Source: a virus | Length of the DNA stretch: 25,970 nt | Virus record (IMG/VR): IMGVR_UViG_3300017917_002860 | Location: 1 to 25,970 of that record | Reading direction: 5' to 3' (one strand) | Shown here: one piece after another, positions 1 to 22,549 of the stretch | How the letters are laid out: every line of letters starts with the position of its first letter | How positions within the stretch are numbered: the first letter of the stretch is position 1 | Position numbers and translations under genes: made by a program | Notes under the pieces: model-generated | Databases searched by the model: none | Told to the model about the DNA's origin: nothing | Seen by the model: only the letters and a program-made list of their open reading frames with translations

Positions 1-918
1 ACCGCCGACACCAAGACAACCGAGGTCATCCCCTGCATAAGCGACGCGGTTCGCATCAAAGCCGTCGCCAAAGTCCCGCATTACACGCAATATCCGTTCG
101 ATACCAATGATCCGTTATGGTCAGAGTTCAACGAAGCGGCTCGCATCGCTATTGCAGAACGAATCGAACCACACGACTTCATCTGCCTAATCGGTGGCAC
201 CGCCCAAAAGCCGATTGCGGATGCCTTCCCTGCCCATATCTCAGTTGAATTTGGTGTTGGTTATGGTGGAGTATTTTCAAAATATCGAGTCTTTGAATCT
301 TATGCTTGGATGCATTCAATCTACGCAGGAAACCAAAGTCCAACATCTGTAGATGGTCGATTCTTTGATGCGGTAATCAACGGTTACCTAGAACCTGAGA
401 TGTTTCCATTAGGTGAAGGTAAAGGAGATTATTATCTCTACATCGGTCGGATTATTGACCGAAAAGGTTACAACATAGCTCAAATGGTTTGTGAGAAATT
501 AGGCAAACGATTGATCTTGGCAGGACCCGGTAAAGGTTCTGGCTATGGTGAGTTTGTTGGATCAGTATCACCTGAAGAACGAGCAGAGTTGATGGGCAAT
601 GCCATAGCAACTTTTGCACCGACTCTTTATATAGAACCATTTGGCAACGTGGTCATTGAATCTCAAGCATGCGGAACTCCAACAATAACAACCGATTGGG
701 GAGCATTTACGGAGACCAACATCGATGGTTTAACTGGTTACAGATGCAGGACTCTGGCTGAATTTATGGAAGCGGCTGAAAAAGTTAAAGATCTTGATAG
801 AAAAAAGATCAGAGACTACGCAGTCCAACGTTATTCACTTGATACAATAGGGAAGCAATACGAAACTTATTTCAAACGGTTATTACTGCTTTGGGGAAGT
901 GGCTGGGATCAACTTTAA
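1..918 (+). CDS. GT4-type glycosyltransferase, 5' end outside the window
   Basis: The frame is open from base 1 to the TAA at 916-918 with no ATG before base 310, so this is a gene cut by the window edge (305 residues seen) and not a 202-residue ORF. The middle holds VFESYAWMH, then a GT-B C-terminal domain: IGRIIDRKG (nucleotide-sugar domain start), ILAGPGKG, and the retaining-enzyme E-x7-E signature in YIEPFGNVVIESQACGTP. It probably transfers a sugar from an NDP-sugar; a virion protein is the likeliest acceptor because the gene abuts the head-tail genes, but a hydroxymethylated DNA base is possible given the modification genes at 17.5-22.5 kb. The first 240 bases are about 55% GC, the rest about 40%. 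Confidence 0.85.
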   Translation, partial: TADTKTTEVIPCISDAVRIKAVAKVPHYTQYPFDTNDPLWSEFNEAARIAIAERIEPHDFICLIGGTAQKPIADAFPAHISVEFGVGYGGVFSKYRVFESYAWMHSIYAGNQSPTSVDGRFFDAVINGYLEPEMFPLGEGKGDYYLYIGRIIDRKGYNIAQMVCEKLGKRLILAGPGKGSGYGEFVGSVSPEERAELMGNAIATFAPTLYIEPFGNVVIESQACGTPTITTDWGAFTETNIDGLTGYRCRTLAEFMEAAEKVKDLDRKKIRDYAVQRYSLDTIGKQYETYFKRLLLLWGSGWDQL

Positions 919-3610: not shown

Positions 3611-4137
3611 TGGCCGATAACGTCGATTATGATGTCAGCGAGTTTGTAAAGTTCTACAAAGCTGTCGGAAATATTGACGTGGAGTTAAAAAAACAACTCC
3701 GTAAAGCCATTATGGAATCTACAAAACCTATTGTCCAAGATGTAAGATCTACGGTTCTCGCCTTGCCTTCTAAACGTTCTGTTACAAGTACGCGTAAAAA
3801 GAAAGGCGAGACCTTAGGTCTTAGAGCTTCAATTGCTGCAGCCACAAAATCAGAATTTGATGGCAATGCAAAACGAGGTGCACTTGTTCGTATCAAAGTA
3901 TCTGGCAGTAGGTTTCAAGCAGTAAGCGGACGATATAGAACACTTCCAAGATATTTAGAAGGACGCACAAAGAAAGTCTGGAGACACCCAGTTTTTGGAA
4001 ATAAAGAAGTCTGGGTAAGTCAAAATTCTAAGCCATATTTGTTTAATACCGTATTAAAATACCGTGATGCAGTAGAAAGATCTATTGCAAAAGCCGTGGA
4101 CGACACACTACAAACTATAGACAACAAAGTAGATTAA
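3610..4137 (+). CDS. HK97 gp10-like neck/minor tail protein
   Basis: 175 residues, strongly basic, beginning with a helix (VKFYKAVGNIDVELKKQLRKAIMEST) and ending with SKPYLFNTVLKYRDAVERSI and another helix. This is the layout of HK97 gp10-like proteins, which take part in the head-tail interface or tail completion. In most siphoviruses this gene precedes the terminator and tube genes; here it follows the tube, as in several actinophages. Overlaps the tube gene by one base. Confidence 0.55.
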   Translation: MADNVDYDVSEFVKFYKAVGNIDVELKKQLRKAIMESTKPIVQDVRSTVLALPSKRSVTSTRKKKGETLGLRASIAAATKSEFDGNAKRGALVRIKVSGSRFQAVSGRYRTLPRYLEGRTKKVWRHPVFGNKEVWVSQNSKPYLFNTVLKYRDAVERSIAKAVDDTLQTIDNKVD

Positions 4138-4149
4138 CAGGGAGAAAAA

Positions 4150-4530
4150 ATGCCACTAAAATTAAGAGGCAAAACATACGTAATTCCTAATGAAGGAAAT
4201 CAACCAGCACCAACTGGATCAGAGATCATTGAGATTGAAAATACTTTTGGTTTAGATGGATTACGTTTGTTGGCTTCGTTGCAACCAAAAGCAATTGAAG
4301 TTAAAGGTTATACAAAGACAAAAGCTTTATACGCAATTACCTGGATCACTCTAAGACGAGCAGGACACGTTGTTTCATTAGATGATGTATTGAATGAATA
4401 CAACATTGAAGAAATTGCAAATGGATTTATTGATGACCCAAAAGAAATAACCGAAAGCTTATCCGTGGCGGAGCCTACGGTTTCATCAGAGAACACACCG
4501 CTCTCCTCTGCCACACCTATCCAGGAATAA
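4150..4530 (+). CDS. Tail assembly chaperone, short form (gpG-like)
   Basis: 126 residues, ribosome site AGGGAG before the ATG. It has the position and look of lambda gpG: mixed helical, conserved TKALYAITWITLRRAG then DVLNEYNIEEIANGF, followed by a low-complexity Ser/Thr/Glu tail after residue 98. That tail is read only when the ribosome does not slip at the CCCAAAA at 4437-4443. Chaperones of this type coat the tape measure protein and recruit tube subunits; they are absent from the finished virion. Confidence 0.8.
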   Translation: MPLKLRGKTYVIPNEGNQPAPTGSEIIEIENTFGLDGLRLLASLQPKAIEVKGYTKTKALYAITWITLRRAGHVVSLDDVLNEYNIEEIANGFIDDPKEITESLSVAEPTVSSENTPLSSATPIQE

Positions 4531-11231: not shown

Positions 11232-11498
11232 ATGCAAAGAAATAAGATCTTAAATGAAGCAGAACATTTGATCTATAACGATCGAGCTCAAGATTATGGT
11301 CACCCATCTATCAACCACTTGAGAATTGCAAAACTATGGTCCGTTGTCCTTGGCGTAGAAGTCCAGCCATATCAAGTAGCATTGTGTATGAATCAAGTAA
11401 AAATCTCACGATTGGTGCAAACACCAGATCATGAAGATAGTTATATTGATGCAGCCGCATATATCGCCATTGCAGGGGAATTAGCTACGGAGAGATAA
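11232..11498 (+). CDS. DUF6378 family phage protein
   Basis: 88 residues, helical, with the family pattern I recognise: ILNEAEHLIYNDRAQDYGHP, RIAKLWSVVLG, VALCMNQVKISRLVQTPDH and DSYIDAAAYIAI. Widespread in phages of Gram-positive and Gram-negative bacteria, with no known activity. The ribosome site is AAGGGG. It shares its last base with the ATG of the Ntn-hydrolase gene (taATG). Other helical small phage proteins with E..D patterns bind nucleotides; this one lacks a clear metal motif, so I assign no function. Confidence 0.8.
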   Translation: MQRNKILNEAEHLIYNDRAQDYGHPSINHLRIAKLWSVVLGVEVQPYQVALCMNQVKISRLVQTPDHEDSYIDAAAYIAIAGELATER

Positions 11499-12100
11499 TG
11501 ACAACGATCGTTGCAATACAGCATGAAGATTGGTGCCTCATAGCAGCTGACACTCAGACAACTGGTTATGATCTTGCATCAGATTGTTCAACAATGGGCA
11601 AAATTGCTCAGAATGGAAAGTACCTGGTTTCGGCTGCAGGTTTGGTCAGAGGCATGAATCTGATCCAACACGCATTTACTCCACCAAATCCACCTAGGGT
11701 CAAAGAACACAAGTTAGATAAATTCATGGTATCGACTTTTGTTCCTGCTCTTAGAAAAACATTTGTTAATTCAGGCTATGACATTAAATCTGATGGAGAT
11801 CCGGCTAGTCATGATAATGAGTTCATAGTTGCTGTTAACGGTCAATTATATTTCATAGACTCTGCATATGGAATTGAACGAGCAGGCAATAAGTTTTATT
11901 GCACAGGAACTGGCATGAAACTTGCTCTCGGAGCGGCACATGCTTTAGGAGTCCATGAAACTGATGATTGGGAAGAAGCTGTAGACATTCTTGAAACCGC
12001 AGTAAAAACAGCAATTGAATTTGACATTTATTCTGGTGGAAAAGTGCAGATTGCACTTCAAACCAATGATGGAAGATCTTGGGTAACCGTCCTCGACTGA
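11498..12100 (+). CDS. Proteasome beta/HslV-like Ntn hydrolase
   Basis: 200 residues, starting MTTIVAIQHEDWCLIAADTQ. After removal of Met1 the new N-terminal Thr would be the nucleophile, as in HslV and proteasome beta subunits; the conserved Asp17 (mature numbering, in AADTQT) and Lys34 (in MGKIAQNG, Lys33 in HslV) follow, then LVSAAGLVRG and the CTGTGMKLALGAAHAL segment that corresponds to the GSG-x(n)-A block of the family. No propeptide is encoded, unlike actinobacterial PrcB, so it is built like HslV. It probably forms a ring protease or a peptidase/amidase of unknown target. Last gene before a strong terminator. Confidence 0.75.
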   Translation: MTTIVAIQHEDWCLIAADTQTTGYDLASDCSTMGKIAQNGKYLVSAAGLVRGMNLIQHAFTPPNPPRVKEHKLDKFMVSTFVPALRKTFVNSGYDIKSDGDPASHDNEFIVAVNGQLYFIDSAYGIERAGNKFYCTGTGMKLALGAAHALGVHETDDWEEAVDILETAVKTAIEFDIYSGGKVQIALQTNDGRSWVTVLD

Positions 12101-16217: not shown

Positions 16218-16969
16218 AACGAATTGAAACCAAGCGTGGTCATAAATATGAACTAGATGGCAAACCTGTAAAAGGTGTGACCACGCTGATTGGTACTGGT
16301 ATGCCAAAACCAGCACTTCCATATTGGTCTGCAAAAATGGTTGCAGAATACGTAGCAGATAATTATATTGCTCTCGATAGTCTAATTGCTAGAGATCGAG
16401 ATGATGCAATTAAACATCTTAAAATGGTTCCTTGGACCGAAAGAGATAAAGCTGCAGCTCGAGGAACAGACATACATGCAATTGCTGAAACTATTATCCA
16501 TGGCGGAGAATCAGAAGTTGCAGGAGAAATTGTTGATTACGTCAATGGATATGTCAAATGGTTAGATGAGTGGAACGTAGAACCTGTTTTGACCGAAAAG
16601 ATTTGTGCAAATAGATCTTATTGGTATGCAGGTACTTTTGATGCAATTCTTAAATTTGGCGATGGTCCATTAAAAGGTAAAACATATCTTTGTGACTGGA
16701 AGACTAGTACAAACGTATATGGCGAAATGGCAATGCAATTAGTTGCGTATGCCAATGCAGATTTTTATCTTGATGAAGATGGATCAGAAAAACCATTACC
16801 TAAGATTGATGGTTTGGCAATTGTTCACATAACTCCTAATGGAACTACCGTTCATGAAGTGACAGATATTGATCTAGCATGGTCATCATTCAAGATTGTC
16901 ATTGATCTTGCAAATCAAATGGAAGTAATAGAAAACCTAATGAAAAAAGTAGAGGACAATAATGGATAA
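16208..16969 (+). CDS. Cas4/RecB-like PD-(D/E)XK exonuclease
   Basis: 253 residues. His90 in ARGTDIHAIAE, Asp145 in YAGTFDAIL, Asp163-Trp-Lys165 in CDWKTS and Gln177/Tyr181 in AMQLVAYANA are the full active site of the Cas4-RecB branch of PD-(D/E)XK nucleases. No four-Cys iron-sulfur set, so it is RecB-like and not true Cas4. Next to an annealing-protein candidate, it is expected to resect DNA ends for phage recombination. Overlaps the next gene by 8 bases. Confidence 0.85.
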   Translation: MGLERIETKRGHKYELDGKPVKGVTTLIGTGMPKPALPYWSAKMVAEYVADNYIALDSLIARDRDDAIKHLKMVPWTERDKAAARGTDIHAIAETIIHGGESEVAGEIVDYVNGYVKWLDEWNVEPVLTEKICANRSYWYAGTFDAILKFGDGPLKGKTYLCDWKTSTNVYGEMAMQLVAYANADFYLDEDGSEKPLPKIDGLAIVHITPNGTTVHEVTDIDLAWSSFKIVIDLANQMEVIENLMKKVEDNNG

Positions 16970-17510
16970 AAGACTAGAAAACTATGTCGATGTACCACAT
17001 AGGATTAGATTGTTTTATGAAAAATATCCTGAGGGTTCATTGCAACTTCAACATATTTCGTTTGAGACAATTGGCGAACAAGTAATCGTCATAGGAAAAG
17101 CATACGCATATCGTTATCCTAATGATCCGACTCCAGGAGTTGGAACTGCACAAGAATATTTTCCAGGCAAAACCAATTTTACACGTGGTTCAGAAATACA
17201 GAATCTGGAAACAAGTTGTTGGGGCCGAGCTATTGGAGCTTTAGGTATTGGAATAGATGGAGCAATTGCAACTAAAGAAGAAGTTGAGTTAGCAATTGAA
17301 CGTAACAAACCGGATAAGGTAACAATTAAAAGACCAAATCCAGGTTTGAAGAAAATCAAAGAATTGCTAGAAGGTTTCGGACACACACCGGACGAAATAC
17401 TTGTAGCAGTACGTGACATCATTAACAGAGATATTGTCTCTAGCAATGATCTTACGGACGATGAGATTGAATTTGTACTTCATTATCTCATCGAGGTCAG
17501 TTCATCATGA
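16962..17510 (+). CDS. Probable ssDNA-annealing protein (Erf-like)
   Basis: 182 residues. YVDVPHRIRLFYEKYPEGSL, VIVIGKAYAYRYPNDPTPG, YFPGKTNFTRGSEIQN and ETSCWGRAIGALGIGIDG are the conserved blocks of a family very common in actinophages just after a Cas4-like nuclease. The family is usually read as an Erf/Rad52-type annealing protein; I base that on the sequence pattern and on the exonuclease partner. A helical C-terminal region (about 125-182) could be a protein-binding tail. ATGA overlap with the next gene. Confidence 0.6.
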   Translation: MDKRLENYVDVPHRIRLFYEKYPEGSLQLQHISFETIGEQVIVIGKAYAYRYPNDPTPGVGTAQEYFPGKTNFTRGSEIQNLETSCWGRAIGALGIGIDGAIATKEEVELAIERNKPDKVTIKRPNPGLKKIKELLEGFGHTPDEILVAVRDIINRDIVSSNDLTDDEIEFVLHYLIEVSSS

Positions 17511-17932
17511 CTCGTATATCCTGGGACAAATATGGATTGGAAATAGCGAAAGCAGCCTCCTATCGTAGTGAAGATCCATATTTGAAGGTAGGTGCTTGTG
17601 TTCTTCGAATGGATCGAAGTATCATAAGTACTGGTTACAACGGAGCTGCGCCTGGTATTAACATTGTGTGGGACAATAGAGATGCCAGACGCGGCTACGT
17701 TATCCATGCTGAAATAAATGCATTGCGTTATTGCACACCAGATCAAACTCGCGGCGGTTACATGTACGTTACGCATCACCCATGTTTGGAGTGCATAAAA
17801 GTTATTGCCAGTTATGGAATCAATGAAGTCCACTACATAGATCTGATTGATGGATCTGTTTATGACTTAGAGGCAATTGCAAATATTGCAAGAGAATACA
17901 ACATTAGACTAATACAGGAGGCAAAAGAATGA
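17507..17932 (+). CDS. dCMP deaminase
   Basis: 141 residues. Zinc site His67-Ala-Glu69 (HAEINAL) and Pro92-Cys93-x2-Cys96 (HPCLECIK); Glu69 is the proton shuttle. GYNGAAPG is a deoxycytidylate-type substrate loop. It should turn dCMP into dUMP and ammonia. In T4 this enzyme works with dCMP hydroxymethylase and dCTPase. It begins the modification segment of the operon by ATGA overlap and ends by ATGA overlap with the pyrophosphatase. Confidence 0.9.
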   Translation: MTRISWDKYGLEIAKAASYRSEDPYLKVGACVLRMDRSIISTGYNGAAPGINIVWDNRDARRGYVIHAEINALRYCTPDQTRGGYMYVTHHPCLECIKVIASYGINEVHYIDLIDGSVYDLEAIANIAREYNIRLIQEAKE

Positions 17933-18360
17933 GTGCTTTAGATTTGATCTTAAATGCTCAGAGAAATTTACAAAAGAATTCTTATGGAGTGGATATATCT
18001 ACACTCAATGAAGAAGACAGAGCAAAATATATTCGTGACATGTCATTAGCATTAACAGATGAATTGCACGAAGCTTTGAATGAAACAGGTTGGAAGCCAT
18101 GGGCAACAAGTCGACATTTTAATCGTCAAGCATTTTTAAGTGAGATGATCGATGTCCTACATTTTTGGTGCAATTTAGTTTTATTGACCAACGTAAGCGA
18201 AGCCGAAATTTTGGATGCTTATTTTGCTAAAGCAGAAAAAAATGCCAAGCGGCAATTAGAAGGTTACAACGGAGTCGATGGAAAGTGCAAATCTTGTGGA
18301 CGTGCTTTTGATGACGTAGCAGTACTTTGCACTCCGACAGTATGTGAGCACCTAGAATGA
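17929..18360 (+). CDS. All-alpha dNTP pyrophosphatase (dUTPase/dCTPase type) with zinc ribbon
   Basis: 143 residues. Glu45-x2-Glu48 in TDELHEALNETGWKPW and Glu72-x2-Asp75 in LSEMIDVLHFW make the metal-binding set of the dimeric all-alpha dUTPase/MazG family, which also includes T4 gp56 dCTPase. The last 30 residues add a four-Cys knuckle (CKSCG, then two more Cys), unusual for the family. It cleaves dUTP or dCTP to the monophosphate, keeping the unmodified base out of DNA and supplying the TS-family enzyme. Strong AGGAGG ribosome site. Substrate choice cannot be read from sequence. Confidence 0.75.
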   Translation: MSALDLILNAQRNLQKNSYGVDISTLNEEDRAKYIRDMSLALTDELHEALNETGWKPWATSRHFNRQAFLSEMIDVLHFWCNLVLLTNVSEAEILDAYFAKAEKNAKRQLEGYNGVDGKCKSCGRAFDDVAVLCTPTVCEHLE

Positions 18361-19376
18361 CATACGTAATTGACGATATTGTCACACCATTTACTGATCG
18401 AATTGCAAGTCATAGATCAGCTTGGCCTCGCATGCAAAAGTGTATGGCAGAAGTTGCATTTGACCAAACCGTAGATATTGCGTTTGGAGATCCAACGAAA
18501 GTCAATGGATCAACTTGGCTTGTATCAACACCGATGGAATTCAAAGGTGAAGTTTTTAATTTATTTGGTGGATATACAAAAGAAGTACGTGACAGAATTG
18601 CACGAGTCCTGGACTTTGATTTTGATAACATTAAAGCTTTGGATCTTCCAGTACCTGATATTGAAAAGATCTTACGACCAAGAGCAGAAAAAACTGACTT
18701 TAATTTTACTGAAGCAGAATGGTCTAGAATCAGAGATCTTCAAAAATGTGAAGTAATAAAACATGAAGATCTTGTTTTAGATGTTCAGCGTGTGGTCATT
18801 GGAGATTCTCACTCAATTTCTAGATACCGCGCTAATACCATTGTTTACCGACATGATGGATTGACTTTATACGGACTATTACAACGTGGGATAAACAGTT
18901 ATTTACCGAATTTCTACGTACCTCATTTGGTTATAAATGCTGGAAACGTGGATATTAGACACCATATTTTGCGTCAACCATCACATGTTGCAGTAACTAG
19001 AAAACTTATTACCGACCTGAGAGTCCAATTAGAGTTTTTACAAAATGAAGGTTTGATTGGTACTTTCGAAGTGACAGCACCATATCCAATTGAATTTGAA
19101 GGCCGTAAAATTCCAAAAACTGGATATTACAAAGGTACTGCATTTTTTGGATCTTGGATTGAACGTGACCATGTCAGAGCTTTAATGACCAATGAAATGA
19201 AATACCAAATAGAAAAAGTTCATGAGTGGCCACAACATTGGTACATGATTAGTCCTGAAGATTATGCAAAGATCTATATGGAAAAACCAGGATCAGTTCA
19301 TTTGTCACCAGAATATTATGAATGGGATTTATTAACAAATACACCAAACGAGGGTATTTATGCCACAGTTGATTGA
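18357..19376 (+). CDS. SGNH-hydrolase-like protein in DNA modification cluster
   Basis: 339 residues. Three SGNH/GDSL blocks are visible: Gly149-Asp-Ser151-His-Ser in RVVIGDSHSISRY, Gly196-Asn197 with Asp199 in VINAGNVDIRHH, and His315 in GSVHLSPEYYEW. The first 140 residues are an unfamiliar N-terminal region. SGNH enzymes are esterases, acetyl-transferases or phospholipases; here it may add or remove an acyl group on a modified base or nucleotide. ATGA overlap with the pyrophosphatase and 17-base overlap with the transferase gene tie it to them. Unusual in nucleotide pathways. Confidence 0.65.
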   Translation: MTYVIDDIVTPFTDRIASHRSAWPRMQKCMAEVAFDQTVDIAFGDPTKVNGSTWLVSTPMEFKGEVFNLFGGYTKEVRDRIARVLDFDFDNIKALDLPVPDIEKILRPRAEKTDFNFTEAEWSRIRDLQKCEVIKHEDLVLDVQRVVIGDSHSISRYRANTIVYRHDGLTLYGLLQRGINSYLPNFYVPHLVINAGNVDIRHHILRQPSHVAVTRKLITDLRVQLEFLQNEGLIGTFEVTAPYPIEFEGRKIPKTGYYKGTAFFGSWIERDHVRALMTNEMKYQIEKVHEWPQHWYMISPEDYAKIYMEKPGSVHLSPEYYEWDLLTNTPNEGIYATVD

Positions 19377-20421
19377 GACCATTTACTGGGAAGATTTTAA
19401 GAAGTATTACAACCGTGCTGCAACTTTGCAAAACATAAATATTGCAAGTGAAAAAGGCCGTGATACTTCAGAAGATCTACACGTTGACGATCCATTGCAG
19501 CACTACATAACAATCTACGATACTGTAGACCGTGAGTTTGCAGGGTTCAGCAATGCAATTCAGCAAATTTGGTATGGAAGTAAGAATCCAAAAAAGTGGC
19601 AGATAGATACCAGATTTGATGGTTATCAATTGCATACTATGGATTGGTTCTGGCTTTTTATGATGCATAGAATTACCGGTTCAGGTGCATCATTTAGTTA
19701 TGACCATGGTTTTCGAAATAGTATCCTTTCTGATATGGCTTTAGCCGGCGATAACATGATCCATATGCGGCAATATGTTTTGTCCGAATTTAGAAATGGC
19801 AGACCATTATTTACAAGTATTGGTAACCAAATACCAATGTTTCCAAAACCTGTTGAACCATTTACAAAAGCTTCTGAGTATTACATTTCAGAATTTATGC
19901 CTAGATTAGTAAAAGGTTTTTACTATCACATTATCAACAATCCACTTTCAATGAGTATCAGAGAAGCAGTTGATTGGATCAATGCGTGGCACAAAGATCA
20001 TGGCATAAAAAGTTTTCATTTTGTTATGACTGCATTTGTTATGGATGTTGCTCAGTATTTTCCTGAGTTAATAGATCCATGGAGTCAGGTAAACTATGGC
20101 AAAAACGCAGTGGAAGCTTTGCATTTATTATTTGGAAATGATGGCTACAAAAAAAAGATGGATTTTCTAGATGCCGCAATGGATAAGATCTGTGAAGAGT
20201 TTAGAAGTCCATATGATACCAGAGATCTTGAAAGAAATCTTGGTAAAGGTTTTAGTTTAGAGGATGTGGCATGTGATTATGTTCGCTACGTTGAATGCTA
20301 TGTACCAAAAGGTTATGAACATTTAGAACCTTGGCAAGTCACAAACAATTCAATGATACCAGAACATCCAAAACACTGGACATACCATAAACATGTCGAG
20401 AAATGGAATAAAAATGTTTAA
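19360..20421 (+). CDS. Putative amino acid:DNA transferase (alpha-glutamyl/putrescinyl-thymine pyrophosphorylase-like)
   Basis: 353 residues, helical. Ribosome site GAGGG before ATG 19360. WFWLFMMHRITGSGASF (Arg104-Gly107-Gly109) followed by His116-Gly-Phe-Arg-Asn, and the later GKGFSLEDVACDYVRYVECY match the pattern I associate with the amino acid:DNA transferase / aGPT-PPlase group of Iyer, Aravind and colleagues, which replace an activated hydroxymethyl group on DNA with an amino acid or amine. I am not certain of the clade. Neighbours (kinase, TS-family enzyme, PLP enzyme) are the kind this family keeps. Confidence 0.5.
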   Translation: MPQLIETIYWEDFKKYYNRAATLQNINIASEKGRDTSEDLHVDDPLQHYITIYDTVDREFAGFSNAIQQIWYGSKNPKKWQIDTRFDGYQLHTMDWFWLFMMHRITGSGASFSYDHGFRNSILSDMALAGDNMIHMRQYVLSEFRNGRPLFTSIGNQIPMFPKPVEPFTKASEYYISEFMPRLVKGFYYHIINNPLSMSIREAVDWINAWHKDHGIKSFHFVMTAFVMDVAQYFPELIDPWSQVNYGKNAVEALHLLFGNDGYKKKMDFLDAAMDKICEEFRSPYDTRDLERNLGKGFSLEDVACDYVRYVECYVPKGYEHLEPWQVTNNSMIPEHPKHWTYHKHVEKWNKNV

Positions 20422-21301
20422 GATTACAGACGACAAATCCAGCAAATATGACTACAATACGAGAGAACAATGGCTCGAACTTGCTGGTGATTGGATCGAT
20501 GAAACACCTGCGCCAAACATCACTACGTTTCATGGTGCAACAATATGGGACGATTCTGTAACAGGGGTCGGTACAAAAGGTCGGTGGGGAGATCTTTTAG
20601 TGTCGAAAATGGAATCAGATCATCTTGTCTACGTGCAACCACGTGTTGGTTGGGCAGGTGTTTCATTGTCAGCTTTGGCAAAAAAGTATAACAAAAAGTT
20701 AACTTTGTTTATGCCATCATCTAAAGTAATTAGTGACCATCAATTAGTTTGTATTGAACGTGGAGCTAATCCTATTTTTAGACGTATTGCCGCAATGCCT
20801 GTTTTGAATAAGTATGCAAAAGAATGGGCAGAAGAACATAATGCGCAATTTGTCCCATTTGGCTTAGATCATCCATTAGTAGTTGCAGCAGGAGTCAAAT
20901 CAACACTTCAACAATGGGGGAACCGTGAAGAACCGAGAGACGTTGTATCTGTTATCAGCACAGGAGTACTTACAAGAACCCTACAAATTGCTTGGCCTAG
21001 TGCAAAATTCCATGGTGTTGCCGTCGCACGTAACTTGCACAAAGGTGAAATTGGACGGGCAGACGTATCTGCATATCATCGTGGATTCAAAGAGAAAGCG
21101 GATCACGCAGATGAGATCAACAGAGAAATTGCTTCAGCTCCGACATATGATTGCAAAGGTCTTGAACGTTTTATGTTGGACAAAACCAATGCACCAAAAG
21201 AAAAAACTACTTTAGTTTGGAACGTTGCAGGTGAAGTAAAGCCTGTTAAAATGTCTCCTTCTGACGTGGATAGTTACAGGGAATGGGGCGAGTTTAGATG
21301 A
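20414..21301 (+). CDS. Fold-type II PLP-dependent enzyme
   Basis: 295 residues from ATG 20414 (overlaps the previous stop by 8 bases; an in-frame ATG at 20393 is possible). Lys55 in VTGVGTKGRWGDLL fits the PLP Schiff-base lysine of the ACC deaminase/D-cysteine desulfhydrase group, VQPRVGWAGVSLSALAKKY the glycine-rich Asn-like loop after it, and ISTGVLTRTLQIAWP the phosphate-binding loop. Chemistry is elimination, replacement or isomerisation on an amino acid; a substrate attached to DNA, or an amino acid made for the transferase, are both possible. The Ser/Thr-Gly loop differs from housekeeping enzymes. Confidence 0.7.
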   Translation: MFKITDDKSSKYDYNTREQWLELAGDWIDETPAPNITTFHGATIWDDSVTGVGTKGRWGDLLVSKMESDHLVYVQPRVGWAGVSLSALAKKYNKKLTLFMPSSKVISDHQLVCIERGANPIFRRIAAMPVLNKYAKEWAEEHNAQFVPFGLDHPLVVAAGVKSTLQQWGNREEPRDVVSVISTGVLTRTLQIAWPSAKFHGVAVARNLHKGEIGRADVSAYHRGFKEKADHADEINREIASAPTYDCKGLERFMLDKTNAPKEKTTLVWNVAGEVKPVKMSPSDVDSYREWGEFR

Positions 21302-21756
21302 TAACAATTGTTGAAGGTTGTGATGGTACAGGCAAAACAACATTTGCCAAAAACCTTGCAAAGATCAATAACTTGAAGTATTTGCATGCTGAAAAACCAA
21401 CTACAAACTATTGGTACACAGAATACTTAAAGCCTGTAAATTCTACAAACATGGTTTTAGACAGATGGCATCTTGGTGAAATAGTTTGGCCAGAGATTTA
21501 CGGTCGAGAATCATTATTTTCTGATCCAGAAAGTTTTGATATTTGTAACTGGACTTTAGCCAAACTAGGAGCAAGATTGTTGCTCTTTGTTCGTCGAGAT
21601 GATGACATTGCAGATGAATTACTAAAACGAGGCGAAGAAAAAGAAATTGAACACGTTCTAAAAGCTAAAGATCTTTTCCTTGATGCATATAAAAGAGTTA
21701 AGTATATGGATAAAACAATTATAGAAAGCGGGACGGTTCATGCACCTAATAACTGA
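21298..21756 (+). CDS. P-loop nucleotide (or modified-base) kinase
   Basis: 152 residues. Walker A VEGCDGTGKTTFA with Lys13, and the thymidylate-kinase-type Asp-Arg in MVLDRWHLGEIVW; an arginine-rich lid (RRDDDIADELLKRGEE). Short for a TMP kinase (about 210). Two readings: a dNMP kinase that raises hydroxymethyl-dNMP to the diphosphate, like T4 gp1 in role, or a DNA kinase that phosphorylates the hydroxymethyl group in DNA so the transferase can displace it. ATGA overlap with the PLP enzyme and 17-base overlap with the TS-family gene. Confidence 0.75.
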   Translation: MITIVEGCDGTGKTTFAKNLAKINNLKYLHAEKPTTNYWYTEYLKPVNSTNMVLDRWHLGEIVWPEIYGRESLFSDPESFDICNWTLAKLGARLLLFVRRDDDIADELLKRGEEKEIEHVLKAKDLFLDAYKRVKYMDKTIIESGTVHAPNN

Positions 21757-22549
21757 GACTCCAAGTGAAGCACTAGAATTTGCAACCAATTACGTATTGC
21801 TACAAGGTCAAGAAATATCTCCTAGAGGTATGAAGACCTATGAAGTTCTCAATGCTACAATTGAAATAACAAAACCGTGGAACATACCATTAGATCTTGA
21901 AAACAGAAAACTTAATCAACGAATTGGTGCAATGGAATGCTTACAATTAGTTGGACAAGTATCTGTTCCTGAGTTAATGACACAAACGGCAAAAACTTTT
22001 GAGCGGTTTATGGATCATGGTATTCTCTATGGTGCGTATGGACCTAGAATCTACGGCAATTTACATAAAGTTGTTGAATTACTTAAAAAAGATCCATCGA
22101 GTCGTCAAGCAGTATTGACCATTTACAATTCTGATAAGGATACCAATTCTGATGTCAAAGATGTTCCATGTACTTTAACTTTGCAATATTTCATTAGAAA
22201 TAATAAACTTTTAGCAAGAACAAGTATGAGATCAAATGACATTTATTTAGGAATGCCATATGATTTTGTTCAGTTTATTGGTTTACAAGGTGCAATTGCA
22301 AAAGCTTTAGATTTGGAAATGGGCACCTATTCTCACACTGTCGGTAGCTTACACGTTTATGATCAGCATGTTCGAGATGCAGAGTTTATCAAAGGTCTTA
22401 AAAATAATTATTCAAGCGAATATGTACCATTGTGGACTAGTTCAACAATTGAAGAAATTAGTTCAGATGCAAGAATGATTTTAGGTGGTCTTATTCGACA
22501 AAACTGTACCGAATTTGAAAAATTCTTGGCAGGCATTGAACATGAGTAA
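21740..22549 (+). CDS. Thymidylate-synthase-family enzyme with dCMP-type Asp175
   Basis: 269 residues. Catalytic Cys144 (DVPCTLTLQY), phosphate-binding Arg164 in MRSNDIYLGMPYD, and His205-x-Tyr207 (LHVY) show the TS fold. The residue equal to Asn177 of E. coli TS, which pairs with uracil, is Asp175. T4 dCMP hydroxymethylase has Asp there and dCMP as substrate. CHxxxQ of true TS is CTLTLQ. It should therefore add a hydroxymethyl (or methyl) group to C5 of dCMP, or of another pyrimidine nucleotide. Starts inside the kinase gene by 17 bases; no closer start exists. Confidence 0.8.
   Translation: MHLITETPSEALEFATNYVLLQGQEISPRGMKTYEVLNATIEITKPWNIPLDLENRKLNQRIGAMECLQLVGQVSVPELMTQTAKTFERFMDHGILYGAYGPRIYGNLHKVVELLKKDPSSRQAVLTIYNSDKDTNSDVKDVPCTLTLQYFIRNNKLLARTSMRSNDIYLGMPYDFVQFIGLQGAIAKALDLEMGTYSHTVGSLHVYDQHVRDAEFIKGLKNNYSSEYVPLWTSSTIEEISSDARMILGGLIRQNCTEFEKFLAGIEHE

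Follow-up and report, generated by a model that had tools for sequence, protein, structure and literature searches.

The seven-gene operon

The stretch of DNA analysed here (the window) is the entire IMG/VR record IMGVR_UViG_3300017917_002860, 25,970 bases in length, from a freshwater phage. It carries genes for tail, head-tail connector, tape measure, endolysin and exonuclease proteins together with WhiB and SSB, which identifies it as a tailed phage, and the presence of WhiB suggests that its host is probably an actinobacterium. We concentrated on seven consecutive genes (Table 1), a candidate operon for hypermodification of cytosine in DNA. An earlier note, made from the sequence of the window, had read them as a base hypermodification pathway built on deoxycytidine monophosphate (dCMP), with four genes paralleling the phage T4 set for 5-hydroxymethylcytosine (hmC) and three genes, absent from T4, that would attach a further group.

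The seven open reading frames (ORFs) all lie on the + strand, with neighbours overlapping by 4-29 nt, and the same genes occur in the same order in about 40 further viral contigs from IMG/VR, their protein identities being mostly 58-88%. Coordinates, overlaps and conservation in the relatives thus uphold the gene order given in the earlier note, and an order kept in about 40 contigs exceeds chance. A search of 50,697 phage records found no close DNA-level relative of the whole cluster. Upstream, the operon may extend to an exonuclease-like gene (16208) and to 16962-17510, both co-linear and overlapping. In one relative (L018 14682-16618) the last three genes, for the PLP enzyme, the kinase and the TS-family enzyme, lie at the end of the contig and on the other strand, a possible assembly artefact.

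Table 1. The seven genes of the candidate hypermodification operon, with positions in the window (TS, thymidylate synthase; PLP, pyridoxal phosphate; AF2, AlphaFold2)
Predicted product	Position	Strand	Basis
dCMP deaminase (Cd-like)	17507..17932	+	Pfam PF00383 1.9e-19; phrog_174 dCMP deaminase 3.6e-37
All-alpha dUTPase_2 / dCTPase-type NTP pyrophosphatase, Cys-rich C-terminal tail	17929..18360	+	PF08761 1.4e-14; phrog_18650 4e-32
SGNH-fold protein, GDSH motif, cassette core	18357..19376	+	AF2 and Foldseek; conserved Ser/His; Aeromonas phage homologues
All-helical ADDT/HMUDK_hel-like protein, presumed DNA hmC transferase	19360..20421	+	hhalign, BFVD Foldseek, invariant residues
Fold-type-II PLP enzyme, presumed tailoring enzyme	20393..21301	+	hhalign to M6 gp52; phrog_7093 6.4e-27; weak PALP 0.003
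Small P-loop kinase, DRW motif, presumed (hm)dCMP kinase	21298..21756	+	Weak thymidylate-kinase-like matches
TS-family dCMP hydroxymethylase (predicted)	21740..22549	+	PF00303 1.1e-21; D175; MilA best PDB match

Evidence for a dCMP-based pathway

The last protein of the operon has the TS fold and an invariant catalytic Cys, C144. At the position of Asn177 of E. coli thymidylate synthase, the dCMP-specificity site, it carries an Asp (D175, in the motif LGMPYDFVQF). Replacement of Asn by Asp at this site shifts the preference of the enzyme from dUMP to dCMP, and for viral contigs with modified cytosine the MetaGPA authors hypothesised an Asp here (PMC8670742). The closest relative in the PDB is MilA, a CMP 5-hydroxymethylase, which ranks above the true thymidylate synthases. 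By all the sequence evidence, the protein is predicted to convert dCMP into 5-hydroxymethyl-dCMP (hm5dCMP).

The same site separates two groups of loci. Asp was present in all readable TS enzymes adjoining the cassette formed by the SGNH, 19360-20421-type (hereafter 19360-type) and PLP genes described below, whereas Asn was present in all readable TS enzymes of the thymidine-modifying loci of the type found in Pseudomonas phage M6, which were fetched with M6 ADDT or HMUDK_hel; this tally is an automatic motif count that left two cassette TS sequences unread, and the two groups came from different queries, so the split is not that of a random sample. The Asp-type enzymes near the cassette fall into two lineages, only 23% identical to each other. 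One is that of the window; the other, gp42-like and 50-55% identical to T2 gp42 when aligned, accompanies marine cassettes. The cassette is thus linked to predicted dCMP hydroxymethylases of both lineages, which is the strongest single result of the analysis. D175, the Asp/Asn split across loci and the gp42-like lineage together make a pathway built on dCMP well supported, and this part of the earlier claim has the support of the Asp-type hydroxymethylase in every readable cassette locus.

A cassette of SGNH, 19360-type and PLP genes

Searches with distant members revealed that the SGNH, 19360-type and PLP genes stay linked in diverse contigs. The window group and G001 (127 kb) share the order SGNH-19360-PLP; T4-like contigs, in which TS and deaminase genes accompany the cassette, have SGNH-PLP-19360, and L202 has PLP-SGNH-19360. 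In the L225-L234 group, where the SGNH and 19360-type genes remain, no PLP homologue was found, so the PLP enzyme looks optional, matching a late tailoring step. Immediately 5' of the TS-SGNH-19360-type genes of L225 lies a small ORF (3786-4259), nucleotidyltransferase-like by eye and of the cytidylyltransferase type, which is possibly a donor-activating enzyme. PDB sequence searches with the alignments of the three cassette families returned nothing meaningful.

No Pfam family matches the 18357-19376 protein, and its identification as an SGNH protein was supported by structure prediction and by invariant Ser and His residues. The AF2 model (pLDDT 84) matched GDSL/SGNH esterases and the OatA acetyltransferase domain in the PDB with Foldseek probabilities of 0.87-1.0, the E-values being near 0.002-0.03 and the TM scores a modest 0.25-0.36 of the query. 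Residues G149, D150, S151, H152, D199, H203 and H315 are unchanged across 50 SGNH sequences, while N197 in block III is Asn in 40 of the 50 and Ser in the other 10. S151, N197 and H315 are the catalytic candidates. The Asp of the block V DxxH motif is missing (the protein reads GSVH), so the enzyme would need a Ser-His dyad or a different acid. Homologues 27-36% identical are encoded by Aeromonas phages 44RR, 31, 25 and Aes012. In 44RR (ORF233c, L041 4989-7376, annotated as hypothetical) the SGNH domain forms a fusion protein with a C-terminal domain whose similarity to HMUDK_hel is weak (E 0.0036, under the cut-off); the phage 31 protein is a fusion as well.

The 19360-20421 protein, which the earlier note had called amino acid:DNA transferase-like, is read here as a divergent, putative relative of the ADDT/HMUDK_hel superfamily. 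Neither it nor its distant homologues have a meaningful Pfam match: the curated ADDT model (PF18724) recognised neither the window protein nor other 19360-type members, and the curated HMUDK_hel model (PF18723) did not match the window protein. However, a profile of 55 diverse homologues aligned by hhalign with M6 gp55 (HMUDK_hel) over 159 columns, with 34.8% probability and an E-value of 4e-4. The score, 35.9, compares with maxima of 26.4 in 60 column shuffles and 27.3 for unrelated families. The alignment pairs MDIAQYFPDLIDPWSRVNYGKNAVEAL of the 19360-type proteins with TDLRHTRYLRNAPDIWAWANAGPGAIRGL of M6 gp55, and EDVACDYVRY with EHTLCEFDKY. M6 gp51 (ADDT) reached 2.6%, slightly over its shuffles and below HMUDK_hel. 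A profile restricted to close homologues gave no significant match to the M6 families, and the score rose when distant homologues were added. E301 and C305 are invariant in 56 sequences, and D229 and G247/N249/A250 are also listed as invariant. The E-x3-C and G-x2-A motifs, which with a helical core mark the ADDT/HMUDK_hel superfamily, seem to recur here. The AF2 model is of low confidence (pLDDT 62, pTM 0.65); with it, Foldseek listed proteins named 'Amino acid:DNA transferase domain-containing' among the top BFVD matches (probability 1.00) and found nothing in the PDB. At superfamily level the earlier assignment thus has partial support, the BFVD names pointing to ADDT, but the Pfam ADDT model was unmatched and the profile lies nearer to HMUDK_hel, the helical domain of the 5-hydroxymethyldeoxyuridine (5-hmdU) DNA kinase. 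A pattern scan of prokaryote genomes found no 19360-type relatives.

The PLP enzyme called in the cluster by the earlier note is indeed there, is of fold type II, and probably starts at 20414 (MFK...), as in most relatives. Its family is homologous to M6 gp52 (hhalign 98%, E 3e-13; 96.1% with a diverse set), which sits between the ADDT and radical SAM genes of the M6 cluster for 5-(2-aminoethoxy)methyl-2'-deoxyuridine (5-NedU), and M6 gp52 also matches phrog_7093. The PLP lysine, K62, is unchanged in 58 sequences. PLP-domain homologues, 28% identical, were also seen within genes annotated 'DNA modification methylase' in Erythrobacter phage R6L (gp1, L043) and Microcystis phage Mae-JY30 (L044, 7111-8702), the latter gene adjoining ParB/sulfiredoxin genes; no TS enzyme was found in either genome.

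The precursor genes

The parallel with the T4 set (Cd, gp56, gp1, gp42) drawn for the remaining genes holds for the roles of hydroxymethylase, pyrophosphatase, deaminase and kinase, but the kinase and the pyrophosphatase lack close homologues in T2. For PF08761, the family of the pyrophosphatase, T2 gives only a weak, partial match, and the window kinase profile finds nothing in T2, so T-even gp1 is not recognised, although the window kinase may still be a functional analogue. The kinase has weak P-loop matches and a DRW motif that is thymidylate-kinase-like by eye. In G001 its homologue adjoins the TS gene, away from the cassette; since hydroxymethylase, kinase and dCMP deaminase are together elsewhere in that record, the precursor genes appear separable from the cassette, and the kinase would belong with them.

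Proposed pathway and alternatives

The reading we favour, and consider somewhat better than an even bet, is an operon for cytosine-based DNA hypermodification, in which hmC is made and an amino-acid-type group is then attached and trimmed. The pyrophosphatase and the dCMP deaminase would drain dCTP and dCMP, the Asp-type TS enzyme would form 5-hydroxymethyl-dCMP, and the small kinase would send this nucleotide back to the triphosphate route, bringing hmC into DNA. After replication, the SGNH and 19360-20421 proteins would act on hmC in DNA and add to it a group that is most likely an amino acid, and the M6 gp52-like PLP enzyme would trim this group, most likely by decarboxylation to an amine. 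In clusters of this kind, decarboxylation of the attached amino acid is the task of the PLP enzyme. What the comparisons show directly is gene identity, the Asp signature, the conserved linkage, the SGNH fold, the PLP homology and the optional nature of the PLP gene; the post-replicative timing, the amino acid donor, the decarboxylation and the split of tasks between the SGNH and 19360-type proteins are inferred. It is likely that hmC is modified further, and the extra genes most probably serve this purpose, as the earlier note had supposed; for the group attached, one derived from an amino acid is our best guess.

Several observations weigh against this proposal. Nine cassette-bearing records (37-142 kb, several of them fragments) yielded no match to the DNA kinase family PF18748, nor to the ADDT family PF18724, with M6 scoring positive as control. 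The activation step would then differ from that of M6 or lie with an enzyme that these models miss. Both Pfam models miss the 19360-20421 protein, for which the profile match taken by itself is weak, the AF2 model poor and PDB matches absent. We know of no role for SGNH proteins in base modification. Finally, the position of the Aes012 SGNH gene next to a UDP-galactopyranose mutase gene (see below) hints at sugars.

Since the kinase tracks with TS, and with neither canonical DNA kinase nor ADDT in the nine records, the SGNH and 19360-type genes appear to be the core of the cassette and the PLP gene optional. As a speculation, the DNA kinase not having been found, the SGNH enzyme may itself provide the activation: it would O-acylate hmC and so create a leaving group, the ADDT/HMUDK_hel-like protein would swap in the amino acid, and the PLP enzyme would decarboxylate it, leaving an amine on cytosine. 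We regard this more detailed route as rather unlikely.

A serious rival, because of Aes012, has a sugar or an acyl group as the end product. Here hmC is made, the SGNH protein acts as an O-acyltransferase or esterase on hmC or its sugar, while the PLP enzyme serves to produce the donor or has some other small molecule as its substrate. In Aes012 (L042 2773-6047) a row of three genes runs from that for UDP-galactopyranose mutase, through one for an unannotated 358-aa protein, to the SGNH gene, making a galactofuranose-type hmC modification possible in that phage. The nearest folds to the SGNH model, acetylesterases and OatA, would suit this explanation, as would a glycosyltransferase-like ORF (phrog_3408, 6e-42) located among the structural genes of the window (310-918, +). 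However, the conserved cassette is without a glycosyltransferase, the partner protein is ADDT/HMUDK_hel-like, and the PLP enzyme has its homologue in M6 hypermodification. We judge a sugar or acyl product unlikely.

The small kinase might instead be a DNA kinase, with hmC already in the DNA as its substrate, in the manner of M6; this would be compatible with the rest of the hypermodification pathway proposed above. Its nearest M6 match is indeed the P-loop subunit (gp54) of the 5-hmdU DNA kinase, but the similarity is limited to a 20-residue P-loop and the HMUDK_HMUD1 model (PF18748) does not match. Moreover, the kinase homologue accompanies TS in G001 and was not found beside marine cassettes. 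A nucleotide kinase for hmdCMP is favoured by these comparisons, and a DNA kinase seems unlikely.

We give little credence to a different product of the Asp-type TS enzyme, 5-hydroxy-dCMP as in RB69-type phages or 5-methyl-dCMP, with the later steps using that base. A homologous 5-hydroxy-dCMP synthase exists in Mosigvirus phages (PMC13390438), and Asn-to-Asp mutants of TS yield 5-methyl-dCMP (PMC8670742); but the nearest solved structure is that of a cytidylate hydroxymethylase, and the marine cassette enzymes resemble T2 gp42. That the enzyme uses dUMP, in an ordinary thymidine or 5-hmdU system, is highly improbable in view of D175 and the clean Asp/Asn divide between cassette and M6-type loci, even though the PLP family and the general gene types are common to M6-type pathways.

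An anti-phage defence function for the operon was rejected, as the PADLOC results were limited to a dCTPase-system match for the deaminase and some weak P-loop matches. Elsewhere in the window, the ORF at 11498-12100 (+) matches the proteasome subunit family PF00227 at its C-terminal end (E 1e-7); it would be unusual for a phage to encode a proteasome-like subunit.

Comparison with known systems

The 5-NedU cluster of M6 (gp51-gp58) shares with the window a hydroxymethylase, the homologous fold-type-II PLP enzyme and a protein of the ADDT/HMUDK_hel superfamily. Unlike the window, M6 has an Asn-type dUMP hydroxymethylase, a canonical ADDT, HMUDK_hel plus a P-loop DNA kinase, and a radical SAM protein, and none of the M6 cluster proteins compared gave a credible SGNH match. 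In the thymidine systems a DNA kinase activates hydroxymethyluracil ahead of transfer (PMC6449724); for this chemistry we relied on PMC6449724, PMC7653180 and general knowledge. Amino-acid-type decorations are known on thymine, and the literature searched contained no report of a cytosine-based one. If our proposal is true, the logic of thymidine hypermodification would extend to hmC, and an SGNH enzyme would join the DNA-modification toolbox. A new hmC chemistry would also bear on the specificity of type IV restriction and on hmC-sequencing tools.

With the T-even hmC system (gp42, gp56, gp1 and Cd) the window shares the roles of dCMP hydroxymethylase, pyrophosphatase, deaminase and kinase, and the marine cassettes share the gp42-type hydroxymethylase. 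The window cluster differs from it in being without a glucosyltransferase and having the SGNH-19360-type-PLP cassette in its place. Aeromonas phages 44RR, 31, 25 and Aes012 carry the homologous SGNH protein together with gp42, those of 44RR and Aes012 being 55-57% identical to T2 gp42; unlike in the window, 19360-type and PLP homologues were not found in them by tblastn, and the genes are annotated as hypothetical. It was noted in 2010 that 44RR, 31 and 25 have gp42, alc, denA and denB yet no glucosyltransferase, raising the question of what, if anything, protects their hmC (PMC2993671). The SGNH protein would be a candidate answer, and because these are cultured phages, this part of the proposal is directly testable.

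The MetaGPA contigs with 5-carbamoyloxymethyl-deoxycytidine resemble the window in having an Asp-type hydroxymethylase, a dCMP deaminase and an extra hmC-modifying enzyme (PMC8670742), although this enzyme is a carbamoyltransferase instead of the SGNH, ADDT-like and PLP proteins. Microbacterium phage Clock (L236, 2918-3682 and 4285-5160), a cultured actinophage, has like the window an Asp-type TS (gp48) near a thymidylate kinase. It differs in having a glycosyltransferase, and neither SGNH nor PLP is annotated in the stretch read. Its gp51, likewise near the TS, is a bona fide HMUDK_hel protein (4e-32), and Clock is a possible second cytosine-based hypermodifier.

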